A DNA stretch of 64,000 bases from Hysterangium stoloniferum (taxonomy: Eukaryota; Basidiomycota; Agaricomycetes; Hysterangiales; Hysterangiaceae), in NCBI GenBank assembly GCA_015178975.1, contig WHVD01000041.1, positions 496,001 to 560,000 on the forward strand. Reading direction: 5' to 3'. Every line of letters starts with the position of its first letter. Position 1 is the first letter of the stretch. Of the stretch, positions 5,180 through 63,899 are shown one piece after another. The notes beneath the pieces are model-generated. The model was not told where the DNA came from and searched no databases. It worked only from the letters and a program-made list of their open reading frames with translations. Made by a program: the position numbers and the translations under genes.

Positions 5180-7031
5180 TCATTGACTTCCGCCTGTTCG
5201 ATTCTTGTAAGCCGGCGGTAACTCAATCTCCTCAATATCATCCGCAAGATCAGCGTGCTGATACACGCTTCCCCGAGGCACTGGAACGGGCAGATCACCT
5301 TTCCGAGGCTCTGGGGGTACATTTGGAGGAGCTCCAGCAGCAGGCATTCCTAACGCCGAAGCTCCAGCTTCCCCTCCCGCCAGCAGAGCTGCATCGACCG
5401 GGTAGTTCACTTGAGTATCGCTGAATGAGCCTATAGTCGAGTACGTCGATGAATTTCTTGGCACCACCGAGTCTGTATACACTCCTGCAACAGTACCGTA
5501 TGCCACTGTTGTACTTGTGCTCGTTGTTGCGTCTGACATCGGGTATCCTGATTGGCGCGCAGGCGTGGTATCCCCCATGGAAAACTTTGAGCGATCCCCC
5601 GGACTATGTGCGTCCATATATGGGGTGGAGGGCAATCTATGATAGCGTCCAGGAGAGCCTTGCGCTGTCCCAGCTGGGTCATACCGGGATCCGATAAATC
5701 CCTCTTGTGCATCGTATGGAGGCGTAAAGGGCATGATCTCCCCGGCAGTAAGGTCGACTTTATTCCAGTCATAACCAGGTGCGAGCTTTTTGCGCGTACG
5801 ACGCCTTCGGAGGTAGAAGAGAGCACTGAGGCCAAGTACAGCGATGAGGACCGATACACCAACGACTGCACCAATGATGGATGTTGTGGTATTTGAGGAA
5901 GACTTGGGGCCTGGTGAGCTACTGGCCGTGGCCGTGGTCGACGCAGACGACGTCAAAGTACCACTCTGACCTTGTCTACATGAAGGCTATTCATTTCTGA
6001 TGGCCTTAATAAATGAGTGAGAAGATAGCTCACGTGCTACTTATATGGCTAGTACTATCGCTGGCTACAGATTGTAGACCACCGCAGTTGAGGTCTGCAG
6101 TGCCAAGTGTGGTCAAAAGATTAGTCGACGCAGCGTAAACACCATTCCTGTAGATGTAATAAGAGAGGCGGCCCTACAATACCCTGATTAAGGAAGTGCT
6201 TACGCGTCGCTGATAGATGCTAGATAAGAGTATTAGCGGCGTCTAAAAGATCAGTAGCGGTGCCGTACCTAACAATGTTATTCCGGGAGATGTGCGACTT
6301 ACCCAATTATAGGTATCGAACTGTGGGTCTAACGTTACGTTTGCTACAACAGGTTGGCCAAGGCGGACCACGGTGATGGTATAAGGGCGTGTCCCGCCTT
6401 TGATTAGAAGGGGGAGAAATGCACAGGATTCTAGGGTCCTAGTGGTGTTCGTCGTAACTGATACGGGGGATGTAGGGTTTTGTGCATGACAAGTGGTGTT
6501 TCCAGTACCTGGAAATTGGTGATCAGAAACGCTCGATGATGAGAAAACTAGGGCTATTGGACGTACCTGTTACGGTAAGCAGGTTTGGCCCCACACCACC
6601 CGCATTTCCGTTTGCATCCGCCATACTCAGAAGGAGTGTTGCGCCTGGGATAACGTCAGCAGAGAGCGGAGCGTGATTGACATGGTACTCGCCGGCAGGA
6701 TGATCGACTGTCCAGAGAAGGTTCTGAGGGTCACTACCCAGTGTCTGAACGGTAGTTATGCTGGAGCCCTCGTAGGCAAACATGGTGTACGGTGGTTGGG
6801 GTACGACTGGCCCCTTTGCAGTGACGAAGATTCGAATCTGGGCACATTCCGGGAGATTATTGGCAATGAGCTACAAAGAGAGACGTTATCAGCAACTAAA
6901 CATAAATGCTACGAAGCACTTGCTGGTGTTGTGAAGCCCCAGACAAATGCTGGTTGAACATCTGCGTATGAGGGAGCTAAGAAAAGGGTGGAAACCACAG
7001 CGAGAAAACATTGTCTTCGTGATGAAAGCAT
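5180..7031 (-). CDS. Secreted/single-pass TM surface protein, copy A (6 exons)
   Basis: Exons: 7031-6924, 6870-6567, 6508-6269, 6219-6204 (16 nt), 6147-6034, 5975-5180; they total 526 codons. The start at 7031 gives a signal peptide (MLSSRRQCFLAVVSTLFLAP.SYA) followed by DVQPAFVWGF. The lumenal part has LPECAQIRIFVTAKGP, SDPQNLLWTVDHPAG, LLLSMADANGNAGGVGPNL, a Cys-containing KGGTRPYTITVV block and LLASISDANG. A Ser/Thr-rich stalk, one TM helix (about residues 294-316), an RRRR stop-transfer and a Pro/Ser/Tyr-rich cytoplasmic tail follow. I know this layout from hypothetical surface proteins of agaricomycetes; its function is unknown. Intron 1 (6923-6871) best fits a GC..AG intron with donor GCAAGT. 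Positions 6645-6692 could be a further 48-nt in-frame GC..AG intron. No disruption was seen. Confidence 0.8.
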
Positions 7032-16978: not shown

Positions 16979-17106
16979 ACTTCCCATCCCTGCCATCCAC
17001 CTAACTGCTAACCTTGCTCTTTGTAATGGGACATGCCCATTGTCCAATCGTGTATTTGTTGATTAAAGCCTGTTTACTCTCTACCATGATGAACTGCAAG
17101 GGCTAT
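16979..17106. repeat. Dispersed repeat shared with 44494-44624
   Basis: CCACTTCCCATCCCTGCCAT.. through ..ACTCTCTACCATGA.. is nearly identical at both places. Here it joins LTR1 to TM-gene copy D; there it sits between the arms of a large inverted repeat. No function seen. Confidence 0.6.
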
Positions 17107-17278
17107 TGGGTGGGCTTGTTACAGTAAATAGGTTTGGCCCCACACCACCAGCATTTCCATCTGCATCCACCATACTCAGAAGGAGTGTTGCACCTGTGAT
17201 AACGTCAGCAGAGAGCGGAGTTTGATTGTCATGGTACATACTCGCTGACAGGATGATCGACTGTCCAGAGAAGGTTCT
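17107..17278 (-). pseudogene. TM surface protein gene, partial copy D (left piece)
   Basis: Matches exon 2 of the TM gene (LLLSMVDADGNAGGVGPNL). The other piece is at 20204-20580. The two are separated by a Gypsy pol fragment that replaced about 11 bp of the exon. Copy D lacks the signal-peptide exon. Confidence 0.75.
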
Positions 17279-20203
17279 ATTATCAGCAGGTTCCCATGTG
17301 CATTCCTCTTGAGGGTACCCTTTCCATTTCACTAGGTATTGTAGTTTTCCCCTTGCCAATCTGCTATCTTTGATATATTCAACCTCCCATTCAGGAGTAT
17401 CTCCTTTAACAACTGGAGGAGGCCTAATTGGAGGCATCCTCCCTTGAATTGTGTCCTCCTGGAAAGGCCTGAGCTTCGCTACATTAAAGACTGGATGGAT
17501 TTTCATGGAAGAAGGCAATTTCAACTCATAGGCATTTGGACCAATAACTTTGGTGATTTCAAAGGGTCCATATCTCTTGTCTTCTAGTTTTTTAGATGGC
17601 CTGTCTGTCTGAATGTCTCTGCCTTCTAACCATACTTTATCTCCTGGCTTATAGATGTCTGCCTCTTTTCTAGACTGGTCATAGTACCTAGCCATATCAT
17701 CAGCAGATCATCAGCAGCCCTATGGAGTGCAGCTTCTGCATCTTTCCTTGCCTCCTGCATGTCTTTAATAAACTGCTCCACAGATTTTATTTGGCTACTT
17801 CTGAAAGGCTCAGTCCCCAATCTAGGATGCCTGCCATTATTCAGAATAAAAGGTGTCTGCCTAGTAGATGCTTGAACTCTGTTGTTATGGCAGAATTCTG
17901 TTAAAGACAACCATTCTGCCCAATCATCCTGTCTGTGATTCACAAAGAGTCTAAGGTATTGTTCTACCTCCTGATTTACTCTTTCTGTCTGGCCATTTGT
18001 CTGAGGGTGATAGGCTGTAGAAGCTGCAACTTTGATCCCTAGGATTGAATTCAGCTCTCTTGTGAATTTTCAGACAAACTGGGGTCCTCTGTCACTGATG
18101 ATCTGTAAGGGGAGACCATGGAGTTTCTATACATTGACCCTATAGAGCCTGGAAATGCCGCACTTATCACATCCTTTGGTATAAGATGCAACAAATCTGG
18201 ACATTCCTGGCCATCAGTAATTCCTGGAGACCAATTCTAAGGTTTTCCATCTGCCTGGGGGGCCACTGGTATGAGCATCATGATGCAGTTCAACAATCTG
18301 CCTTCTAAGTTCCATATCCTTTGGCACATAGACTTTCCCTCTGAAGAGAATGAGACCCTGTTCCTCTGCCCCCTCTGTGCCTTCAATTCTTTTACTTCCT
18401 GACTTTTTCAGTTCTTCTACTGCCTTGGCTGCAACTTCTTCCATATCCTTGGCCTATCTGATTTTCTTCAGCAGATCTGTCTCCTGTCCTACTAATGTAG
18501 CATGACTCTGTTTAAGAGCTTGGATCCTGAAATAAGAAGGCTTGAGAAGGGTAATATCCCTCTCTCCTTTCCCATGATCAGGTCTTCTGGATAGAGCATC
18601 TGGTTTTAGGGAACTTTTACCAGGCCTATGATGTAAGGTGAAGTCAAATCTGGACAAAAACAGGGACCATCTAGCCTGCCTCCTATTAAGTTGTTTGGCA
18701 GACATAAAGTACTCTAGATTTTTGTGGTCTGTCCAGATTTGAAAGGTATGACTGCTCCCTTCAAGATAGTGCCTCTATTCATCCAGAGCTCTAATGATAG
18801 CCAGCATTTCTTTGTCATGGATTTCATAATTTCTTTCCACTTCATTCAGACTCTTAGATAAAAAGGCTACAGGGTGCCACTTTGTTGAATGAGTAATGGT
18901 TGACCTGGATATATTAATATCTTACTGATGACTAATCATCTCAGTAGTAACTGGTTCTTAATAGAACTACTCTTAATGGCCTGATAGCTCAGGGGTTAAG
19001 AGCACTAGACATGTAGTCCAAACTTAGTGGTTGGTGGTTCAAATCCACTTGCCATCTGGTCCTTCCTGAGACAAGACAGCACCTGTTGCAAAGTTAGAAC
19101 TGTCTGCCTCTAACTTGTAGGGTTTGCTGTCATCAGGAAAGACAAGAATTGGAGATGAAGTGATCTTGTCCTTCAGGCCTTGAAAGGCTGCCTTTTCTTC
19201 CATAGTCCACTTCCATGCTGTATCTTTCCTTGTCAGATTATGAAGGGGTCTGGCTATTTTTGCAAAGTCCTGGATAAACCTTCTGTAGAAGTTGACAAAG
19301 CCTAGGAAAGATTGAATCTCCTTAACTGTGGTAGGTTCTGGCCATTTGGAGATACCCTCTATCTTCACTGGGTCCATAGAGATGCAGCCATGTGAAATGA
19401 TAAGTCCAAGATATTCAATCTTTTCCTTTTCAAATTCACATTTTTCTGCTTTCAAATAAAGCTTGTTTTTCTCCAATATTTCAAAGACCCTCTTGACCAC
19501 TTCTCTATGTTGTTCCAGAGTGTTTGTGAAGATAAGAATATCATCCATGTAGACAATGACAACTTGACCATCAATCAACTCTATGAACAAATCATTCATC
19601 ACGGTCTGAAATGTAGCAGGACTATTGGTAAGACCAAAGAACATGACCAATGGTTCAAACAGTCCTCTATTGGTTCTGAAAGCTGCTTTCCATTCATCTC
19701 CTTCCTTTATTCTGACATTGTTATAGCCCCATCTGACATCCAACTTAATGAAGTATTTGGCTCCCTTTAACTTGCTGATAATGTCAGAGATGAGTGGTAG
19801 AGGATAGGAGTTTTTGATTGTGATGTCATTTAGCTTTCTGTAATCCTGGACCAATCTTAAAGAGTCATCCTTCTTCTTTATAAAGAACACTGGAGATGCC
19901 ATAGGAGACTTGGAGGGTTGGATCCTTCCACTTTTAAGGTTCTCTCCTAAGAATTCATCCAGTTCCTTCTGCTCATGTGGTGCTAAAGGATAGAGCTTGC
20001 TTCTAAAAGGCTCTGATCCAGGCGTCAATTCAATGGCATGATCCCAGGGTTTCTTATCTGGCAATCTGTCAAAGACTCTTTGGAGAATATTCCCTTGAAC
20101 TGGTGATAACATTTTGGAACTAGTTCCTCAAAGGTTTTCTTCTGGTCTTGTTTATGAGACTCCTCCACCAACTTCTGTGATACAGTAGAAGTAGCATTAG
20201 TAA
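17279..20203 (-). mobile_element. Ty3/Gypsy chromovirus pol fossil without LTRs
   Basis: Order on the minus strand: reverse transcriptase with the YMDD active site (ORF 20112-19039), RNase H with a [10 protein letters not shown] motif, integrase pieces, and a C-terminal chromodomain (YLVKWKGYP..ECTWEPADN, about 17279-17400). The chromodomain places it in the chromovirus group. It is broken at roughly half a dozen points and has no LTR at either end. Both ends lie inside TM-gene copy D. A tRNA-like insertion sits at 18883-19050. Confidence 0.88.
18883..19050 (+). repeat. tRNA-like insertion in the pol fossil
   Basis: About 162 bp inserted between neighbouring pol codons, bounded by CCACTT at 18877-18882 and 19045-19050. 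It begins TGTTGAATGAG. Its 3' half carries a Pol III A box (TAGCTCAGGGG, 18985-18995), a GCTC/GAGC D stem and a B box (GGTTCAAATCC, 19036-19046). The anticodon stem pairs poorly and the 3' acceptor strand is missing. Either a tRNA-derived SINE or, on the minus strand, a truncated LTR ending CAACA with an embedded tRNA-like sequence as in the TRIM at 29473. Confidence 0.6.
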
Positions 20204-29467: not shown

Positions 29468-29495
29468 AGATATGTTAAAAGTGTAGATAATGAAT

Positions 29496-29566
29496 GGCCA
29501 GACTGGGGATTGAACCCAGGGCTTCTGCATATATAGCAGGGGTGTTAACCATTACACCACCTGACC
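29496..29566 (-). tRNA. tRNA-like sequence in the TRIM 5' LTR
   Basis: 71 nt with a complete cloverleaf. The acceptor pairs GGTCAGG with TCTGGCC, including G-T pairs. The D stem is GTGT/ACAC, the T stem CTGGG/CCCAG around TTCAATC, and the anticodon stem pairs at 4 of 5 positions. The A box TGGTGTAATGG and B box GGTTCAATCCC are strong. The anticodon loop TATATAT has A where U33 should be, so it is probably not a functional decoding tRNA but could act as a Pol III promoter. The nominal anticodon is TAT. Confidence 0.7.
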
Positions 29567-29778
29567 CTGGGAAGCACTGCTAGCATTACTCAATCTAACA
29601 CACTCCCTTAATGCTAGCACTCAACTATACTATAAGCAGATATAGGTCCTCTCTGGCTCTTTTGTCCAGACTTGTCCACTATACCACACACAAATATAGC
29701 TGTTCACTCTACACACAGGAACCATGCCCTATAGCACACAGCGGGGCCCATAACCTGTTAAAAGTGTAGATAATGAAT

Positions 29779-29849
29779 GGCCAGACTGGGGATTGAACCC
29801 AGGGCTTCTGCATATATAGCAGGGGTGTTAACCATTACACCACCTGACC
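29779..29849 (-). tRNA. tRNA-like sequence in the TRIM 3' LTR
   Basis: Identical by eye to the copy at 29496-29566, with the same cloverleaf and the same odd anticodon loop. Confidence 0.7.
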
Positions 29850-29883
29850 CTGGGAAGCACTGCTAGCATTACTCAATCTAACA

Positions 29884-30110
29884 AGATAGACTTTGATTCT
29901 GGCCAGTGCCGAGTCATCTCCTTTTGGGGTTTTTTGTTCCCGCATTGACTTCTCTTCCTCATTTTGTCTACTTTCACATCCAGTTGTTGATATTTGTATT
30001 TTTTATTCTCTCCTTCCCAACATGGATTTGTTCCCAATGATGTTGAATTTCTTTCAACGTCATCAAAATTCTGGACGCCAAAAACTAATCGTTGATCTAA
30101 GCGCTTTGCC
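29884..30110 (+). repeat. Second copy of the segment captured at 26352-26588
   Basis: GACTTTGATTCTGGCCAG..GTTGATCTAAGCGC matches the foldback cargo with scattered differences and a short length change. It borders the TRIM directly, and the TRIM target duplication AGATA lies at its edge. The open frame 29893-30168 spans it but has no known domain. Confidence 0.6.
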
Positions 30111-35659: not shown

Positions 35660-37517
35660 TCATTGACTTCCGCCTGTTCGATCCTTGTAAGCCGGCGGTA
35701 ACTCAATCTCCTCAACATCGTCCGCAAGATCAGCGTGCTGATACACGCTTCCCCGAGTCACTGGAACGGGCGGAGCACCTTTCCGAGGCTGTGGGGGTAC
35801 ATTTAGAGGAGCTCCAGCAGCAGGCATTCCTAACGTCGAGGCTCCAGCTTCCGGTCTCGCCAGCAGAGCTGCATCGACCGGGTAGTTCGCTTGAGTATCG
35901 CTGAATGAGTCTATAGTCGAGTACTTCGATGGATTCCTTGGCACCACCGAGTCTGGATACGCTCCTGCAAGGGTACCGTATGCCAATGTTGTACTTGTGC
36001 TCGTTGTTGCGTCTGACATCGGATATCCTGATTGGCGCGTAGACGTGGTATCCCCCATGGAAAACTTTGAGAGATGCCCCGGACTATGTGCGTCCATATA
36101 TGGGGTGAAGGGCAAGCTATGATAGTCTCCAGGAGAGCCTTGCGCTGTCCCAGCTGGGTCATACTGGGATCCGATAAGTCCCTCTTGTGCATTGTATGGG
36201 CTAGGCGTAAAGGGCGTGATCTCCCCGGCAGCAAGGTCGACTTTATGCAAGTCATAACCAAGTGCGAGCTTTTTGCGCGTACGACGCCTTCGGAGGTAGA
36301 AGAGAGCACTGAGGCCAAGTACAGCGATGAGGACCGATACACCAACAGCTGCACCAATGATGGATGTTGTGGTATTTGAGGAAGACTTGGGGCCTGGTGA
36401 GCTACTGGCCGTGGCCGTGGTCGACGCAGACGACGTCAAAGTACCACTCTGACCTTGTCTACATGAAGGCTATTCATTTCTGGTGGCCTTAATAAATGAG
36501 TGAGAAGATAGCTCACGTGCTACTTATATTGCTGGTACTACTGCTGGCTACAGATTGTAGACCACCGCAGTTGAGGTCGGTATTGCCAAATGTGGTCAAA
36601 AGATTAGTCGACGCAGCGTAAACACCATTCCTGTAGATGTAATAAGAGAGGTGGCCCTACGATAACCTGATTAAGGAAGTGCTTACGCGTCGCTGACAGA
36701 TGCTAGGTAAGAGTATTAGCGGCGTCTAAAGGATCAGTAGCGGTGCCGTACCTAACAGTGTTTGTCCGGGAGTTATGCGACTTAACCAATTATAGGTATC
36801 GAACTGTGGGTCTAGCGTTACGTTTGTTACAGCAGGTAGGCTAAGGGGGACCACGGTGATGGTATAAGGGCGTGTCCCGCCTTTGATTAGAAGGGGGAGA
36901 AATGAACAGGTTTGTAGGCCATCAGTGGTGTTCGTCGTAACTGATACGGGGGATGTAGGGTTTTGTGCATGACATGTGGTATTTCCAGTACCTGGAGATT
37001 GGTGATCAGAAACGCTTGATGATGAGAGAACTAGGGCTATTGGACGTACTTGTTACGGTAAGCAGTTTTGGCCCCACACCACCCGCATTTCCGTTTGCAT
37101 CCGCCATACTCAGAAGGAGTGTTGCGCCTGGGATAACGTCAGCAGAGAGCGGAGCGTGATTGACATGGTACTCGCCGGCAGGATGATCGACTGTCCAGAG
37201 AAGGTTCTGAGGGTCACTACCCAGTGTCTGAACGGTAGTTATGCTGGAGTTCTCGTAGGCAAACATGGTGTACGGTGGTTGGGGTACGACTAGCCCCATT
37301 GGATTGACGAAGATTCGAATCTGGGCACATTCCGGGAGATTATTGGCAATGAGCTACAAAGAGAGACGTTATCAGCAACTAAACATAAATGCTACGAAGC
37401 ACTTGCTGGTGTTGAGAAGCCCCAGACAAATGCTGGTTGAACATCTGCGTATGAGCAGGGAGCTAAGAAAAGGGTGGAAACCACAGCGAGAAAACATTGT
37501 CTTCGTGATGGAAGCAT
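35660..37517 (-). CDS. Secreted/single-pass TM surface protein, copy B (6 exons)
   Basis: Exons 37517-37407, 37353-37050, 36991-36752, 36702-36687, 36630-36517 and 36458-35660 total 528 codons, without interruption. The start at 37517 gives a signal peptide (MLPSRRQCFLAVVSTLFLAP..) then DVQPAFVWGF. Ectodomain, TM helix, RRRR and tail are as in copy A; a DGLQTCSFLPLLIKGGTRPY segment keeps the family's Cys. Intron 1 again has donor GCAAGT, and the 48-nt in-frame GC..AG candidate is at 37138-37185. Differences from A are scattered substitutions and codon-sized indels, as expected for two copies held under constraint. Surface location is inferred; the function is unknown. Confidence 0.82.
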
Positions 37518-38117: not shown

Positions 38118-39658
38118 TCAAGCTGCAGTAGGATAATCGCTATATCCAACCGACAAAGCGACACCAGGCACGTAGTACAGATGCTTGAAATCAAGCACCG
38201 CATCTAATGCCTTTCCCTGCTCAATGCGACGCTGCAAATCTGGATGGCCTATCCATGGAATACCGAAAACACCCGCATCAATTTTGCCCTCAAGAATGAG
38301 CTGGTCTGCCTCGCTGGGCGTGAGTCCACCGTTGAGGAAGAATTTTGAGTTCTTGAATAGCGAGCCATAAGATTCTACGACGTCGTGCTGGGTGGCTCTC
38401 AGTTTCCCTAACGAGAGGTTGAGCGCCAGGGCCCGTAGAGCGTGAATAGATACTTAGGAGAGACTTACCATCGAAAGAAATGTCATACGCTGCGACATAG
38501 CGAACCAGGGTGACATACGCGACACGCATCTCATCAAGGCCTTTGATGGCATGTGTGTATGTCTCCAATGTGTCTTCCAGCGACATGCCCACATCGTTGT
38601 ATCCTCCTGGGGTATTAAGTTTCACGCCTACGCGATCCGCGCCCCAAACCTCGATAAGAGCTTTAACAACTTCAAAAAGGAACCGGGAGCGGTTTTCAAC
38701 ACTCCCGCCCCATTCATCAGTTCGTTTGTTCGATGTATTGTCGAGGAATTGGTGAACCAAGTAACCGTTTGCGGCGTGTACTAGGTATAAATAGTTAGTT
38801 GAGGGGCATTTTATTGACACGGTATATAAACTTACATTCAACTCCGTCAAAGCCTGCCTCCTTTGCCTTCATCGCAGCATGCTTATACTGTGCGACGATG
38901 ATACGAGGGTCGGGGATTTCAGTAGGCTGTTAACTGAGTTGAGAAAAATTGGTCTTCTTCAATCTTGGCTCAATACGTACTGTTACATATCCGGGTTGAC
39001 CAGGTAAAGTGCGGAATTTACCCCCACGGGCGGAAACAGCGGATGGTGCCCAGACAGGCTGTCATAATAGTATTTATTGAGTGAGTGAAAGGTTGGATGT
39101 GGAACAGGTGACATACCGTGCCGGCGGCCTTTTGTTCAGGCATATCTGGATGATTAACACGACCCACTAGAATTCCTGCTGTCAGAATTATGATAACTTT
39201 GACACTTTGGATAAAATCGTACAGTGCCATAGCTGGGCGAACATGTGGCTACCAGCCTCATGGACGACGTCTGTGATATTTTTCCATGCTGCAACATGTT
39301 CGTCATTCCAAATGCCAGGAGCATGTTCCCATTCACTCCTGTACGATAATCGATGTTAATTATAGAATAAAATAAAGGGGATCTAATCAAGCGCGGGTAC
39401 ATACCCTTGACGTGTGATAAGAGCGCCTTCGGAGACTATCAGACCTGCACCACCTTGAGCGCGCTGTTTGTAATATTCAAGCATTGTGTCGTTAGGGACA
39501 GTGGTCGGGAATGCTCTGTTCCTCGTTAACGCTGACATGACATTTCCTATACGTTCAAAATAATTATAAGTCGTTGTCAAGGTAGAGAAATACGTCTTGT
39601 GCGTACGGTTACGGAGGAGGATGGGGCCAAGCTGGAGGGGTGAACTGATTCCAGACAT
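38118..39658 (-). CDS. Old Yellow Enzyme-type NADH:flavin oxidoreductase, copy B (8 exons)
   Basis: Exons 39658-39607, 39546-39405, 39338-39223, 39166-39117, 39058-38981, 38926-38836, 38780-38469 and 38407-38118 give 377 codons, the usual size for fungal OYEs. OYEs are FMN enzymes that reduce activated C=C bonds with NAD(P)H. Visible motifs: MSALTRNRA (residues 21-29, FMN site), [16 protein letters not shown] (from about 100), [22 protein letters not shown] (178-190, with the substrate-binding His and Asn), [11 protein letters not shown], and [14 protein letters not shown] near the C-terminus. For exon 4, acceptor ATTCTAG is preferred over an upstream GACAG because it restores LWHLGR, the family sequence. 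It lies about 600 bp upstream of the TM gene on the same strand. Substrate and pathway are unknown. Confidence 0.9.
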
Positions 39659-47319: not shown

Positions 47320-48852
47320 TTAAGCTGCAGTAGGATAATCGCTATATCCAACCGACAAAGCGACACCAGGCACGTAGTACAGATGCTTGAAATCAAGCAC
47401 CGCATCTAATGCTTTTCCCTGCTCAATGCGACGCTGCAAATCTGGATGGCCTATCCATGGAATACCGAAAACGGCCGCATCAATTTTGCCCTCAAGAATC
47501 AGCTGGTCGGCCTCGCCGGGCGTGAGTCCACCGTTGAGGAAGAATTTCGAGTTCTTGAATAGCGAGCCGTAAGATTCTACGATATCGTGCTGGGTGGCTC
47601 TCAATTTTCCTAAACGGGAGGTTGAGCGCCAGGGCCCGTAGAGCGTGAATAATACTTTGAAGAGACTTACCATCGAAAGAAGTGTCATACGCTGCGACAT
47701 AGCGAACCAGGGTGACATACGCGACACGCATCTCATCAAGGCTTTTGATGGCATGTGTGTAGGTCTCCAATGTGTCTTCCAGCGACATGCCCACATCGTT
47801 GTATCCTCCTGGGGCATTAAGTTTCACGCCTACGCGATCCGCCCCCCAAACCTCGATAAGAACTTTAACGACTTCAAAAAGGAACCGAGAGCGGTTTTCA
47901 ACACTCCCGCCCCATTCATCAGTTCGTTTGTTCGATGTATTGTCGAGGAATTGGTGAACCAAGTAACCGTTTGCGGCGTGTACTGGGTATAAATAGTTAG
48001 TTGAGGGGCATTTTATTGACATGGTATATGAACTTACATTCAACTCCGTCAAAGCCTGCCTCCTTTGCCTTCATCGCAGCATGCTTATACTGTGCGACGA
48101 TAATACGAGGGTCGGGGATTTCCGTAGGCTGTTAACTGAGTTGAGAAAAATTGGTCTTCTTCAATCTTGGCTCAATACGTACTGTTACATATCCTGGTTG
48201 ACCAGGCAAGGTGCGGAATTTACCACCACGGGCGGAAATAGCGGATGGTGCCCAGACAGGCTGTAATAATAGTATTTATTTGAGTGAGTGAAGGGTTGAA
48301 TGTGGAACAGATGACATACCGTGCCGGCGGCCTTCTGTTCGGGCATATCTGGATGATTGACACGACCCACTAGAATTTCCGGTGTCAGAATCATGATAAC
48401 TTTCAAACTTGGGATAAAATCGTACAGTGCCATAGCTGGGCGAACAAGTGGCTACCAGCCTCATGGACGACGTCTGTGATATTCTTCCATGCTGCAACAT
48501 GTTCGTCATTCCAAATGCCAGGAGCGTGTTCCCATTCACTCCTATACGACCATCGATGTTAATTATAGAATGAGATCTAATCAAGCGCGGGTACATACCC
48601 TTGACGTGTGATGAGAGCGCCTTCGGAGACTATCAGACCTGCACCACCTTGAGCGCGCTGTTTGTAATATTCAAGCATTGTGTCGTTAGGGACAGTGGTC
48701 GGGAGTGCTCTGTTCCTCGTTAACGCTGACATGACATTTCCTATACGTTCAAAATAATTATAAGTAGTTGTCAAGGTAGAGAAATACGTCTCGTGCGTAC
48801 GGTTATGGAGGAGGATGGGACCAAGTTGGAGGGGTGAACTGATTCCAGACAT
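47320..48852 (-). CDS. Old Yellow Enzyme-type NADH:flavin oxidoreductase, copy C (8 exons)
   Basis: Exons 48852-48801, 48740-48599, 48541-48426, 48369-48320, 48260-48183, 48128-48038, 47982-47671 and 47609-47320 have the same lengths as in copy B and give 377 codons without interruption. FMN- and substrate-site motifs are conserved ([58 protein letters not shown]). Here the alternative exon-4 acceptor has lost its AG (GACAC in place of GACAG), which supports the ATTCTAG acceptor for the whole family. Its former TM-gene neighbour is destroyed, so the two need not work together. Confidence 0.9.
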
Positions 48853-58074: not shown

Positions 58075-61000
58075 TTAGCCTTGGCCAGAATTGTGTGAGG
58101 GTACTAGGTTGAACTGTTGGGCTTCCAACACCTGAAGCTGAAGCACCTCTGCCTCCTTGTGCCTTCCCAGATCACTGTAGGTCCTTGCCAAATTGCCCTT
58201 GGCTTGTATGGTACCTGGATGCTCTGGCCCTAGTATAAGCTGCTGGGCTTCCAGCACCTGAAGCTGAAGCACCTCTGCCTCCTTGGGCCTTCCCAGATCA
58301 CCATAGGTACTTGCTAAATTAGCCTTGGCCTGTATAGTGCTGGGGTGCTCTGGTCCTAGTATGAGCTGTTGGGCTTCCAGGACTTGAAGGTCGAGGACCT
58401 CTGCCTCCTTTGGCCTTCCCAGATCAATGTAGGTGCTTGCCAAATTGGCCTTGGCCAGAATGGTGTGAGGGTGCTCTGGTCCTAGTATGAGCTGTCGGGA
58501 ATCCAACACCTGAAGCTTAAGCAACTCTGCCTCCTTGTGCCTTCCCAGATCACTGTAGGTCCTTGCCAAATTGCCCTTGGCCAGAATGGTGTGAGGGTGC
58601 TCTGGACCTAGTATGAGCTGTCGGGAATCCAATACCTGAAGCTTAAGCACCTCTGCCTCCCTGTGCCTTCCCAGATCACTGTAGGTGCTTGCCAAATTGC
58701 CCTTGGCCATAATGGTATCAGGGTGCTCTAGACCTAGCATGAGCTGTTGGCCATCGAACACCTGAACCTTGAGCACCTCTGCCTCCTTGGCCCTTCCAAG
58801 ATCACTGTAGGTACTTGCCAAATTGGCCTTGGCCTGTATGGTGCTTGGGTGCTCTGGTCCTAGCAGTAGCTGCTGGGCATCCAACACCTGAGACTCAAGC
58901 ACCTCTGCCTCCTTGGGCCTTCCCAGATCACTGTATGTCCTTGCCAAATTGGCCTTGGCCAGAATAGTGTGAGGGTGCTCTGGACCTAGTATGAGCTGTT
59001 GTGCTTCCAACACCTCAAGCTCAAGCACCTCTGCCTCCTTGGGCCTTCCTAGGTCACAATAGATCCTTGCTAAATTGACCTTGACCTGTATGGTGCCTGG
59101 GTGCTTTGGTCCTAGTATTAGCTCCTGGGCTTCCAAAACCTGAAGCTGAAGCACCTCTGCCTCCTTGTGCCTTTCCAGATCACTGTAGGTCCTTGCCAAA
59201 TTGGCCTTGGCCTGTATGGTTCCAGGGTGCTCTGGTCCTAGTATAAGCTGTCGTGCTTCCAAGACTTGAAGTTCCAGCACCTCTGCCTCCTTGGGCCTTT
59301 CCAGATCACTGTAGATGCTTGCCAAATTGGCCTTGGCCAGAATGGTGTGAGGGTGCTCTGGACCTAGTATAAGCTGTTGGGCATCCAACACCTCAAGCTG
59401 AAGCACCTCTGCCTCCTTGTGCCTTCCCAGATCACTGTAGGTCCTTGCCAAATTGCCCTTGGCCTGTATGGTGCCTGGATGCTCTGGTCCTAGTATTAGC
59501 TGCCAGGCTTCCAGCACCTGAAGTTGGAGCACCTCTGCCTCCTTGGGCCTTTCCAGATCACAGTAGGTACTTGCTAAATTCGCCTTGGCCTGTATTGTGC
59601 TGGGGTGCTCTGGTCCTAGTATGAGCTGTCGGGCTTCCAAGACTTGAAGTTCCAGCACCTCTGCCTCCTTAGGCCTTCCCAGATCACTATAGGTGCTTGC
59701 CAAATTGGCTTTGGCCAGAATGGTGTGAGGGTGCTCTGGACCTAGTATGAGCTGTCGGGCTTCCAACACCTCAAGCTGAAGCACCTCTGCCTCCTTGTGC
59801 CTTCCCAGATCACTGTAGGTCCTTGCCAAATTACCCTTGGCCTGTATGGTGCCTGGGTGCTCTGGTCCTCGTATTAGCTGCCAGGCTTCCAGGACCTGAA
59901 GCTGGGGCACCTCTGCCTCCTTGGGCCTTCCCAGATCACAGTAGGTACTTGCTAAATTAGCCTTGGCTTGTATGGTGCTGGGGTGCTCTAGTCCTAGTAT
60001 AAGTTGTCTGGCTTCTAAGACTTGAAGTTCCAGCACCTCTGCCTCCTTGGGCCTTCCCAGATAACAGTAGGTACTTGCCAAATTAGCCTTGGCCAGAATG
60101 GTGTGAGGGTGCTCTGGACCTAGGTTGAGCTGTTGGGTTTCCAAGACTTGAACCTCTAGTACCTCTGCCTCCTTGGACCTTCCCAGATCACAGTAGGTGC
60201 TTGCCAAATTGGCCTTGACCTGTATGGTGCCTGGGTGATCTGGTCCTAGTATTAGCTGCTGGGCTGCCAACACTTGAAGCTGAAGCACCTCTGCCTCCTT
60301 GGGCCTTCCCAAAGCATTGTAGGTACTTGCCAAATTAGCCCTGGCCAAAATGGTGTCCGGATGCTCTGGACCTAGTATGAGCTGTCGGGCTTCCAAGACT
60401 TGAAGCTCCAGCACCTCTGCCTCTTTGGGCCTTCCCAGATCACTGTAGGTGCTTGCCAAATTGGCCTTGGCCAGAATGGTGTGAGGGTGCTCTGGTCCTA
60501 GTATGAGTTGTCGGGAATCTAACACCTGAAGCTTAAGCACCTCTGCCTCCTTATGCCTTCCCAGATCACTGTAAGTCCTTGCCAAATTGGCTTTGGCCAG
60601 AATGGTGTGAGGGTGCTCTGGACCTAGCATGACCTGTCGGGCATCCAACACCTGAAGTTTAAGCTCCTCTGCCTCCTTGTTCCTTCCAAGATCACTGTAA
60701 GTCCTTGCCAAATTGGCCTTGGCCATAATGGTATCAGGGTGTTCTAGACCTAGCATGAGCTGTTGGCCATCAAACACCTGAACCTTGAGCACCTCTGCCT
60801 CCTTGGCCCTTCCAAGATCACTGTAGGTGCTTGCCAAATTGGCCTTGGCCTGTATGGTGCTTTGGTGCTCTGGTCCTAGCAGTAGCTGCTGGGCATCCAA
60901 CACCTGAAGCTCAAGCACCTCTGCCTCCTTGGGCCTTCCCAGATCACTGTATGTCCTTGCCAAATTGGCCTTGGCCAGAATAGTGTGAGGGTGCTCTGGA

Positions 61001-63899
61001 CCTAGTATGCGCTGTTGTGCTTCCAACACCTCAAGCTCAAGTACCTCTGCCTCCTTGGGCCTTCCTAGGTCACAATAGGTCCTTGCTAAATTGGCCTTGG
61101 CTTGAATGGTGTCAGGGTGCTGTGCACCCAGCACACTGTCTCTCTTTGACAACAACACTTGCTGCATGCCATTTGCAATTTCCCAGTGGCCAAATTCTCT
61201 CAATATCATTGAAAATTTGCTAAACATGTCATCATAATAGACCTTTAGATCCTTCCCACCACTGCTTCTGCTTCTAAATGCCTGAATGTGGAGTACAAGA
61301 TTCCGTCGTCCTATAATATCCTTCATATTACCTCCAGCTGGGATAGCCCCTACTAAGACAGCTCTTGCTGTGCATATATAAAGAGAATTATTCCCCCTCA
61401 AAGCTCTGTCTCTACTCCATGCATGAATCACAGGATGCATTGTCCAAAAAAGAGACCCATATGCATCATCACCTTTGAATAGCAAGGAATAATCACATAA
61501 TACTTGCATTGCCTGCCTAAATTCCATCCTTGTCCATTCCCCATTCTCATTACATTTAAGCAAATGAGTGGGAAGATCACATGTTGTAGTTTGCAGTTGT
61601 TCATCATCTATCACTGGGGGAACTGACTCTGCAGCATGTTTGAATATTTTTTCCATGATATTCTGATGATGAAAGAAACTTAATACTCTGAGAATGAATA
61701 GGGCATTCTGTGCTCTTTCAGGAAAGATGACTGATGTTTCAATGAGATTATATGACACATTCAATGCACCATACACAGTGTGGTTGTATCTGGATGCTCC
61801 TTTCAGAGAAGGATGATCAGCATCCAATAGGTTTGATGTCTGTGTTTGGTACATTTTCAAATAATCACCAAGTGTACACAATCCTGCAGATATTGTTGCT
61901 CCTGCAATGTCCACAGCAAGGGGCAAGGAGCCTACAGTTGTTACAATATGTTTTGACATTGTAACCATTGTACTATCAGAAACATTTTGAAGCTTTGCTG
62001 CTATCTGAAATAGAGAAATAGCACTGTCTTCATCCATTGGTAGAATTTCAATGGATGATTGTACATGAGCCATAAGAACAGGACTCCGGCTTGTAATTAG
62101 GGCATGGATCAACCTGAGTTTGTCTAAATATTGAAGGATTTCATCATCCATCCCATCAGCATTATCAAATATAAGAAGCCACTTCTTTCTATTATGAGAC
62201 AACCATTCCAGAACTGCATCACTGGACCTTTCAACACCTTGTGCTCTAACATCAGGATCATCTGCAATACTGGCAAAACTATTTTGTAAGGTCACTGTGT
62301 TTGTGGCATCAATCCAGATAACTCTCCAATAGTTACTGATTCATTAATCAGAATCTATCAGACAGACTCATTGAAGTGGCTTGTTGCTTACTAGTCATTG
62401 GCCAGCACCTCTTCAATGAATTTCAAACATATCTGAGTCTTCCCAACACCTGCCATCCCATATAAAAGGAAGTGCCTCCATGGCTGAGGATTATTAGGGG
62501 TAAAGAATTTCCTCAGTGTTGAAAGATATTCTCCCTGTCCCAAGAACCTTGGACTAGGACGGAGTTTCGCCCTATATGTCATTCCTGTAGACTCCACCTC
62601 TATTGTACCAAATGATATTAATATGCAAAATATTTAATAGATATTTCTCACCAGCATAGTCAAACTTAGACCACCGGAGTTGTATTGGAGGTAGTGCTTT
62701 CTTGATCATATCTTGAATGGTGGTTGATATGAAAATGAAGTCATCATCACTTTGAGATGCAAATTTGGTCATCCCATTATGATCTTTAGACATCCCTACC
62801 ACCTCCATATTGGCCCCTGAAATCATTGCAGAAAATTTGGGAACAATCTGCAAACGGCATTGTAAATTTGTACAAGGCCATAAGCATATGGAGGCTTACA
62901 ATCTCAGAACTGTTATCAGGAAGAACGGTCTTAAGGGTCTCATGAAAAAATTTGGTATGAAAATTTGCACTTATTGCACTGTAAGAAGAAGATTGCTGCT
63001 GCAACCACTCAGAATTAGAAACCAAGTGTTTCAACAACACATTATTAGTTTTGCTGGATAGCGATGCAAGTTTCAGCAATTGATTAGCAGGGTTGGCAAT
63101 GGCAGTGGTGCCTTGATGTGGTGTGGCGAGGAATAGAATACCATATGTAGACAAAGCTATCCATTTGTGTTCGACCAGGTGACCTCTGTGTGCCTGACTG
63201 GCTTGTATCAAAGCCTGACAGGTATCAATATTGAATTACAGCCGGACAATTATTACAGAAATAAACCTACGTGTTTGAGAATAATCCCGCCGAGGCTGTG
63301 CGGAATAAAAATTATGGGCCGTTTCTGGAGCACCTCCTATGAGGAAACGACAAATTCGCTAGACTTGAGTTGTACGAACCGTAGTATTTGAACTCGCTCT
63401 TAATGCAGCCAAGCGTGCAAGGAAATTCTCTGCGTGATCATCCAAGGTCTGCGTGGACGATGTAGCCGTGCTCGAGGTGTAGGCATCATAACCATATGTC
63501 AAAATCCGAGCGGACGGTACATCCAGGGGTAAGAAATCGCGAAGCCAGAGTTTACCGTTGTCTGCTGTCCACGATGCTTCACGATGTCCATCCAAGCCGT
63601 GGATGGCCACGATACTGTAAAAGACGTAATTGAGTCTTGGTGGACAATAAAAATTGATATTTGATTGCTTACTCCACTAACGGAGAAATACCTGGTGTAA
63701 GCTCCTTGATGCCGAAACCCTGAGAGCGGGTTTGTTCTTGAGGGTAGGATTGGATTGTATCACGTACTAGTCCGACTGAAGGCGAAAAGGAACCTTTAGA
63801 CTGTAACTGCTGCGGAGAGATCAGAAAAGAACCCAGAGGTTCTGACTCTGCAGGGTATAAAAGAAGGGCTCGTTTCAAACGCTTAAAGATAGGAATCAT
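58075..63899 (-). CDS. NOD-like receptor: alpha/beta-hydrolase - NB-ARC - TPR (7 exons, about 1835 aa)
   Basis: Exons 63899-63673, 63614-63380, 63336-63271, 63214-62900, 62847-62652, 62599-62392 and 62335-58075 total 1836 codons. N-terminal hydrolase-like domain: VAIHGLDGHREASW (about 78-91), ILTYGYDA, PIIFIPHSLGG with Ser168 (relatives have GHSLGG, so the GxSxG motif begins with Pro here), STYGILFLATPHQG, and DHNGMTKFAS with His304. NB-ARC: Walker A GMAGVGKT (394-401), Walker B WLLIFDNAD (468-476), GSLPLA (551-556). C-terminus: 24 TPR units of 42 aa (about 828-1835), consensus AKANLASTYSDLGRPKEAEV and so on, of the kinesin-light-chain type. Such STAND proteins act in fungal non-self recognition and programmed cell death; that role is inferred here. 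The last unit is altered by an 8-bp loss. Confidence 0.92.

Follow-up and report, generated by a model that had tools for sequence, protein, structure and literature searches.

The element at positions 29473-29883 of the window, a 64,000-nt stretch of Hysterangium stoloniferum DNA (contig WHVD01000041.1, positions 496,001 to 560,000), is very probably a Helenus-type (TRIMp3), non-autonomous LTR retrotransposon of miniature size, propagated by the cycle proposed below. It is 411 bp long and consists of a 128-bp LTR, a 155-bp interior and a second 128-bp LTR. This anatomy, with two identical LTRs and an AGATA target duplication, had been outlined in the initial annotation and is confirmed by repeat comparison and sequence reading: 29473-29600 and 29756-29883 are 128-nt direct repeats of 100% identity. 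On the minus strand, the LTR opens with TGTTAGA, closes with CTTTTAACA and is followed directly by the primer site GGTTATGGGCCCCGC; the placement of this site and of the polypurine tract means that the minus strand is the sense strand of the TRIM and of its tRNA-like sequence alike. In the window, no ORF of at least 150 aa overlaps the interior. The features are the following, the A-box-like and B-box sequences being assigned from the box consensus:

29468-29472, no strand: target-site duplication AGATA, past the 3' end of the element, matching 29884-29888
29473-29600, minus: 3' LTR, 128 bp, identical to the 5' LTR (direct-repeat comparison)
29495-29566, minus: tRNA-like cloverleaf of the 3' LTR (ARAGORN, Rfam)
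29601-29611, minus: polypurine tract TTAAGGGAGTG, adjoining the 3' LTR (by eye; a similar tract in family 2)
29601-29755, minus: non-coding interior, 155 bp
29741-29755, minus: primer-binding site GGTTATGGGCCCCGC, complementary to the anticodon arm of initiator tRNA-Met
29756-29883, minus: 5' LTR, 128 bp, TGTTAGA...TTTTAACA (oriented by primer site and polypurine tract)
29760-29763 (5' LTR) and 29477-29480 (3' LTR), minus: T4, candidate Pol III terminator, LTR nt 121-124
29778-29849, minus: tRNA-like cloverleaf of the 5' LTR, anticodon loop TATATAT with A33 (ARAGORN, fold, Rfam)
29789-29799 (5' LTR) and 29506-29516 (3' LTR), minus: B box GGTTCAATCCC (sequence against consensus)
29832-29842 (5' LTR) and 29549-29559 (3' LTR), minus: A-box-like TGGTGTAATGG (sequence against consensus)
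29884-29888, no strand: target-site duplication AGATA, ahead of the 5' end of the element (read from sequence)

The tRNA-like character of the LTRs is recovered by three approaches. ARAGORN calls a tRNA-Ile(tat) on the minus strand at 29495-29566 and 29778-29849, the Rfam tRNA model, a search proposed at the outset, gives 46.8 bits (cut-off, 29) in both LTRs at these same coordinates, and the 72-mer folds into a cloverleaf at minimum energy. The minus-strand cloverleaf first described for each LTR therefore stands, its length becoming 72 rather than 71 nt once the discriminator A is counted, and the A at loop position 33 is indeed present in the loop TATATAT. A decoding tRNA needs U33, and a loop with A33 is ill-suited to decoding; where a functional tRNA gene has U33, the LTR sequence has A33. 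Between 28500 and 31000 of the window, Rfam returned no RNA family other than tRNA at E values up to 1, and hence no 5S rRNA.

The primer site GGTTATGGGCCCCGC is complementary at 15 of 15 positions to one initiator tRNA-Met gene (locus L081), in the anticodon arm (nt 25-39 of the gene as written). The initiator tRNA-Met pattern has three matches in the genome (L081, L082 and L083), all intronless and with different trailers. The tRNA-like sequence, for its part, is not complementary to the primer site: in the window family, their longest exact complement is just 4 nt.

A TRIM built on a tRNA-like LTR had been proposed as an invention parallel to Cassandra. This was right in kind, though such elements had already been published in 2024 under the name Helenus (Kojima, 2024; PMC10886601), with hosts given there as rust fungi, three named Agaricomycetes, animals and one plant. 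Fungal Helenus elements are described in that paper as having 5-bp duplications, primer sites matching the anticodon loop of initiator tRNA-Met and Copia elements as the proposed mobiliser, the last because the primer sites resemble each other, the duplications have the same length and one internal sequence matches across two rust species; use of Pol III is stated there to be without experimental proof. The window TRIM has the structural Helenus features that we tested. As in the published accounts of Helenus, it is shorter than 1000 bp, carries two LTRs, each with a tRNA-like sequence containing A and B boxes, as well as a primer site and a polypurine tract, makes the 5-bp duplications of the fungal elements, and has a primer site of the commonest fungal type, directed at the initiator tRNA-Met anticodon loop, with which its own tRNA-like sequence does not pair (PMC10886601). 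Copia is the likely mobiliser of the fungal elements there and a supported candidate here, and in both cases the tRNA-like copies inflate tRNA counts. The predicted Ile-UAU type, however, is absent from the LTR tRNA types named for fungal Helenus in the portions of PMC10886601 on which we draw.

The window TRIM belongs to a mobile family. Its 39-nt tRNA core has 217 matches in the genome at up to 3 mismatches (reversed control, 0), so that the two repeats are not a local duplication devoid of other genomic copies. Nor is the cloverleaf missing elsewhere: ARAGORN finds a tRNA in 98 of the 108 full-length LTRs of the fetched stretches (97 Ile-tat, 1 Thr). The first 100 of the 217 listed places correspond to 72 insertions, 46 with one core, 24 with two cores about 283 bp apart and 2 with three; the 46 are not all solo LTRs, several having a shortened or altered second LTR. 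Stretches for closer reading were picked from the best matches and the perfect-core hits, and are thus biased to young copies; the 66 that were readable gave 69 groups, two of which are parts of one broken element on contig C141. Complete LTR-interior-LTR elements make up 31 groups (29 with exact 5-bp duplications), solo LTRs 25 (22 with duplications), tandem LTR-INT-LTR-INT-LTR forms 4 (all with duplications) and odd forms 9 (3 with duplications). The tally first suggested as a check thus gives 31 full elements, 25 solo LTRs and exact duplications in 58 of 69 groups by script, with 55 different sequences, to which reading by eye adds two further 5-bp duplications and one of 6 bp; two solo LTRs with a common left flank are not independent. 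The LTRs are identical in 24 of the 31 complete elements, in line with the recent transposition initially proposed, and differ at 1 position in 5, at 2 in one and at 14 in one. On C141 (L102, C141:38100-40200), one TRIM is nested in the tRNA-like part of another, with an inner duplication GCAGG; in the outer, broken TRIM the LTR is followed by a different interior, Z, which is also present at C79:292126 (91.5% over 153 bp).

This census bears on two other identities for the element. Real tRNA-Ile(UAU) genes, duplicated locally and immobile, would account for the good cloverleaf and for the tRNA-Ile call by ARAGORN, but we consider this extremely improbable given the 217 core matches, the exact 5-bp duplications, the solo LTRs and tandem forms, the primer site, the polypurine tract and A33; local duplication is rejected by the copy census. 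A SINE mobilised by LINE machinery would likewise be a short interspersed element with a tRNA-like Pol III-type promoter, but here the TG...CA LTRs, 5-bp duplications, tRNA primer site, polypurine tract and absence of a 3' tail leave next to no chance for that identity, which is rejected by the element structure.

The genome also contains a second, diverged Helenus family, found via three primer sites 317-318 bp apart on contig C4. Its unit (L105, C4:60296-60640) has a 251-bp LTR, a 66-bp interior and a tRNA-like sequence scoring 48.6 bits, and its 40-nt core has 223 genome matches at up to 3 mismatches (control, 0). Family 2 occurs in tandem arrays and is clustered on C35, C109, C14, C60, C182 and C137, whereas family 1 is dispersed: among the first 100 listed places of each, same-contig neighbours lie less than 20 kb apart in 49 of 58 cases in family 2 (223 places) and in 1 of 23 in family 1 (217 places). 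The two families align locally across the block that starts with the tRNA-like sequence and finishes at the LTR end, with a score of 75, whereas 300 shuffles score no higher than 44; they also align in the interior, across its first 40 nt, and, by eye, agree in the first 7 nt of the LTR, their LTRs being otherwise unalike. Because the copies of family 1 are almost the same in sequence, covariation in the cloverleaf was sought between the two families: pairs 5 and 6 of the acceptor and pair 3 of the T stem are changed on both sides with pairing kept (by eye); separate origin from two tRNA genes could be an alternative source of these paired changes. Family 2 retains the tRNA-like sequence, the B box (the same 11 letters in both families), a T4 and the primer site, with TTTTC coming after its tRNA-like sequence.

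The initial reading of the element as a TRIM with a tRNA-like, putative Pol III-type promoter in each LTR is supported, and we infer from the sequence that the window TRIM could be transcribed by Pol III. Within the family, the B box is exact in 48 of 56 copies and altered in 8, with 5 rare changes in 11 sites, so that no constraint on it is seen, and the way in which copies were selected accounts, at least in part, for the unchanged A box. The tRNA-like sequence is followed by ATTTTC in 31 of 56 family 1 copies and by ATTATC in the window copy; the LTR end CTTTTAACA is retained by the window copy and by 52 of the 56. In the window element, the T4 of each LTR are the sole TTTT sites on the sense strand. 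This counts against a full-length Pol III RNA, because T4 also lies in the 5' LTR and read-through is required; two of the three initiator tRNA-Met genes have longer runs (T7 in L082, T6 in L083), while the stretch read at L081 has only T4. Alternatively, the genomic RNA might be made by Pol II, the tRNA-like sequence being a passenger or acting at another step, and Pol III producing at most short tRNA-like RNAs that end at T4. The T4 after the tRNA-like sequence in both LTRs, the T4-only trailer of L081 and the 8 of 56 copies without an exact B box are in keeping with this possibility, which we nonetheless regard as rather unlikely: two families with otherwise unalike LTRs have the block from tRNA-like sequence to LTR end (75 versus at most 44) and the primer site in common. 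Such sharing is what a promoter in this block would predict, although two families could also have a Pol II R-U5 region in common.

Mobilisation of the window TRIM by Copia elements is supported, not proved, by two kinds of evidence from the genome sequence: a chimera with an element encoding a copia-type Gag, and Copia elements behind the same primer-site motif. The chimera (C135:369312-371028; L039:1226-2942) reads LTR-Y, TRIM interior, TRIM LTR, Y interior, LTR-Y, and GCCAT stands on both sides of the whole unit (by eye). LTR-Y, present in two copies, is 120 bp long, starts with TGTTAGATT and ends with CGAACA; the Y interior carries the initiator tRNA-Met primer site of the TRIM and a 265-aa copia-type Gag (Retrotran_gag_2, E 3e-29) with a zinc knuckle match just above its cut-off. 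The two LTR-Y are spaced by 1597, the sum of 1314 and a single TRIM unit (283). That the chimera lies within a single duplication suggests that the TRIM and a Gag-only Copia element were reverse-transcribed together; this is the simplest reading, the alternative being recombination after insertion at the common primer site, and the link between TRIM and partner rests on one clear chimera. Y itself is a family, with 14 LTR-Y pairs 1309-1314 bp apart among the 40 matches scored, of 347 candidates. At about 1429 bp, it carries the Gag frame and has no space for pol. The Gag frame is free of stops in 24 of the 28 matches with at least 95% identity that cover at least 259 of 265 residues, from 148 Gag matches listed overall, many of them broken. 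Y thereby resembles the TR-GAG elements of plants, which are Gag-only LTR elements, with the difference that Y is the chimera partner of the TRIM and not the TRIM itself.

In other families, 377 LTR/primer-site junctions were counted (BCAGGTTATGGGCC, 59 matches; ACAGGTTATGGGCYCNGD, 318; controls, 0). When 159 of the 377 (the 59 and the first 100 of the 318) were compared with the best 150 of 1270 RVT_2 candidates, 16 lay 1.5-4.5 kb upstream of an RVT_2 on the same strand, against 1 with strands flipped; among the matches listed, six are exactly 3379 bp from RVT_2, each in a 1416-aa open frame. The one Copia LTR that we read is 305 bp long, with TGTTAGA at its start and TTTCAACA at its end, and the primer site behind it pairs with initiator tRNA-Met over 14 nt; at this junction, no further similarity to the TRIM was found beyond the LTR termini and the primer site.

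A second class of unusual products points to the plus-strand step. Four insertions have LTR nt 47 (TAATGG) as their exact first base and a normal right end, intact to AACA, with the duplications ATCAC, GTTTT, GTCCG and GAAGG; two were flagged by script and two by eye, where the match had extended into the flank. An insertion on C168 reads INT[34-155]-LTR-INT-LTR, with a 6-bp duplication AAGAAT (by eye). The 10-mer before LTR nt 47 agrees with the polypurine tract at 7 of 10 positions, a score reached by 3 of 274 positions, and the 10-mer before INT 34 at 6 of 10, reached by 7 of 274, the true tract included in both counts. By purine count only, the break points are ordinary (equalled by 130 and 54 of 274 positions, respectively), and INT 138/139 also scores 7 of 10 against the tract, yet no insertion was seen to start there. 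Both starts are best read as plus-strand priming at look-alike sites, since an internal plus-strand start followed by transfer would yield products with nt 47 and INT 34 ends. Could the element RNA instead have its 5' end at nt 47? This identical end recurs in four insertions whose duplications differ, and the purine content ahead of it is unremarkable. The right ends, however, run fully to AACA; nt 47 falls within the A box, not where Pol III would be expected to start; the two break points are among the positions most like the polypurine tract; and the C168 product, with its 6-bp duplication, agrees with plus-strand priming but is not easily explained as an RNA start. An RNA end at nt 47 thus seems distinctly improbable, and we retain secondary plus-strand priming.

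Together, these observations can be arranged into a cycle. The tRNA-like sequence of the 5' LTR would recruit Pol III, which would pass the short T runs of the 5' LTR and stop at T runs in the 3' LTR; the resulting RNA would carry a repeat at either end. This RNA would enter Copia-type particles made of the Gag of other elements and, as the integrated chimera suggests, may at least once have been reverse-transcribed jointly with a Gag-only Copia element. Minus-strand DNA would be primed by the 5' half of initiator tRNA-Met, to which the 15-nt complementarity points, and plus-strand DNA would start at TTAAGGGAGTG, with occasional mispriming at look-alikes leaving integrated products with common exact ends. 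A Copia integrase presumably inserts the cDNA, generating the 5-bp duplications observed, and recombination between LTRs would produce the solo LTRs that carry such duplications. More tentatively, and with somewhat less than even confidence, we propose a parasitism on three levels: the putative Pol III TRIM would be packaged with the RNA of the Gag-only Copia element, the particle perhaps being formed by the intact Gag of the latter, a third, autonomous Copia would provide reverse transcriptase and integrase, and template switching at the common initiator tRNA-Met primer site would give heteromeric cDNAs that integrate as units.

Compared with known systems, this genome contributes (i), a second family; (ii), the TRIM/Gag chimera; (iii), by-products with fixed break points and (iv), long-frame Copia elements behind a common primer motif. 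In the portions of PMC10886601 on which we draw, neither a chimera with a Gag-only Copia element nor secondary plus-strand starts are described. Their occurrence in one genome means that steps of mobilisation can be read from DNA, and the two families (217 and 223 core matches) illustrate the extent to which elements of this kind may raise the number of tRNA genes predicted. Cassandra and the window TRIM both carry a promoter sequence of small-RNA-gene type in each LTR and both form tandem arrays, but Cassandra uses 5S rRNA, belongs to land plants and has reported Pol III transcripts (PMC10886601), whereas the window TRIM is tRNA-like and fungal. The TRIMs of Boletales are also non-coding elements with two LTRs in fungal genomes; the portions of PMC5689174 on which we draw mention no tRNA-like LTR for them, in contrast to the window TRIM.

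Elsewhere in the window, Ty3/Gypsy remnants lie at 17081-20112, with frames for reverse transcriptase, a Tf2-type SH3 and a chromodomain. Two pairs of frames that resemble each other were also noted: Ser/Thr-rich frames with one hydrophobic stretch (5180-5956 and 35660-36439), and pieces of a flavin oxidoreductase (38290-38850 and 47492-48052, one of the pair domain-scanned). Finally, a 1406-aa open frame of tetratricopeptide repeats, with 22 TPR_10 stretches, extends from 58075 to 62295.
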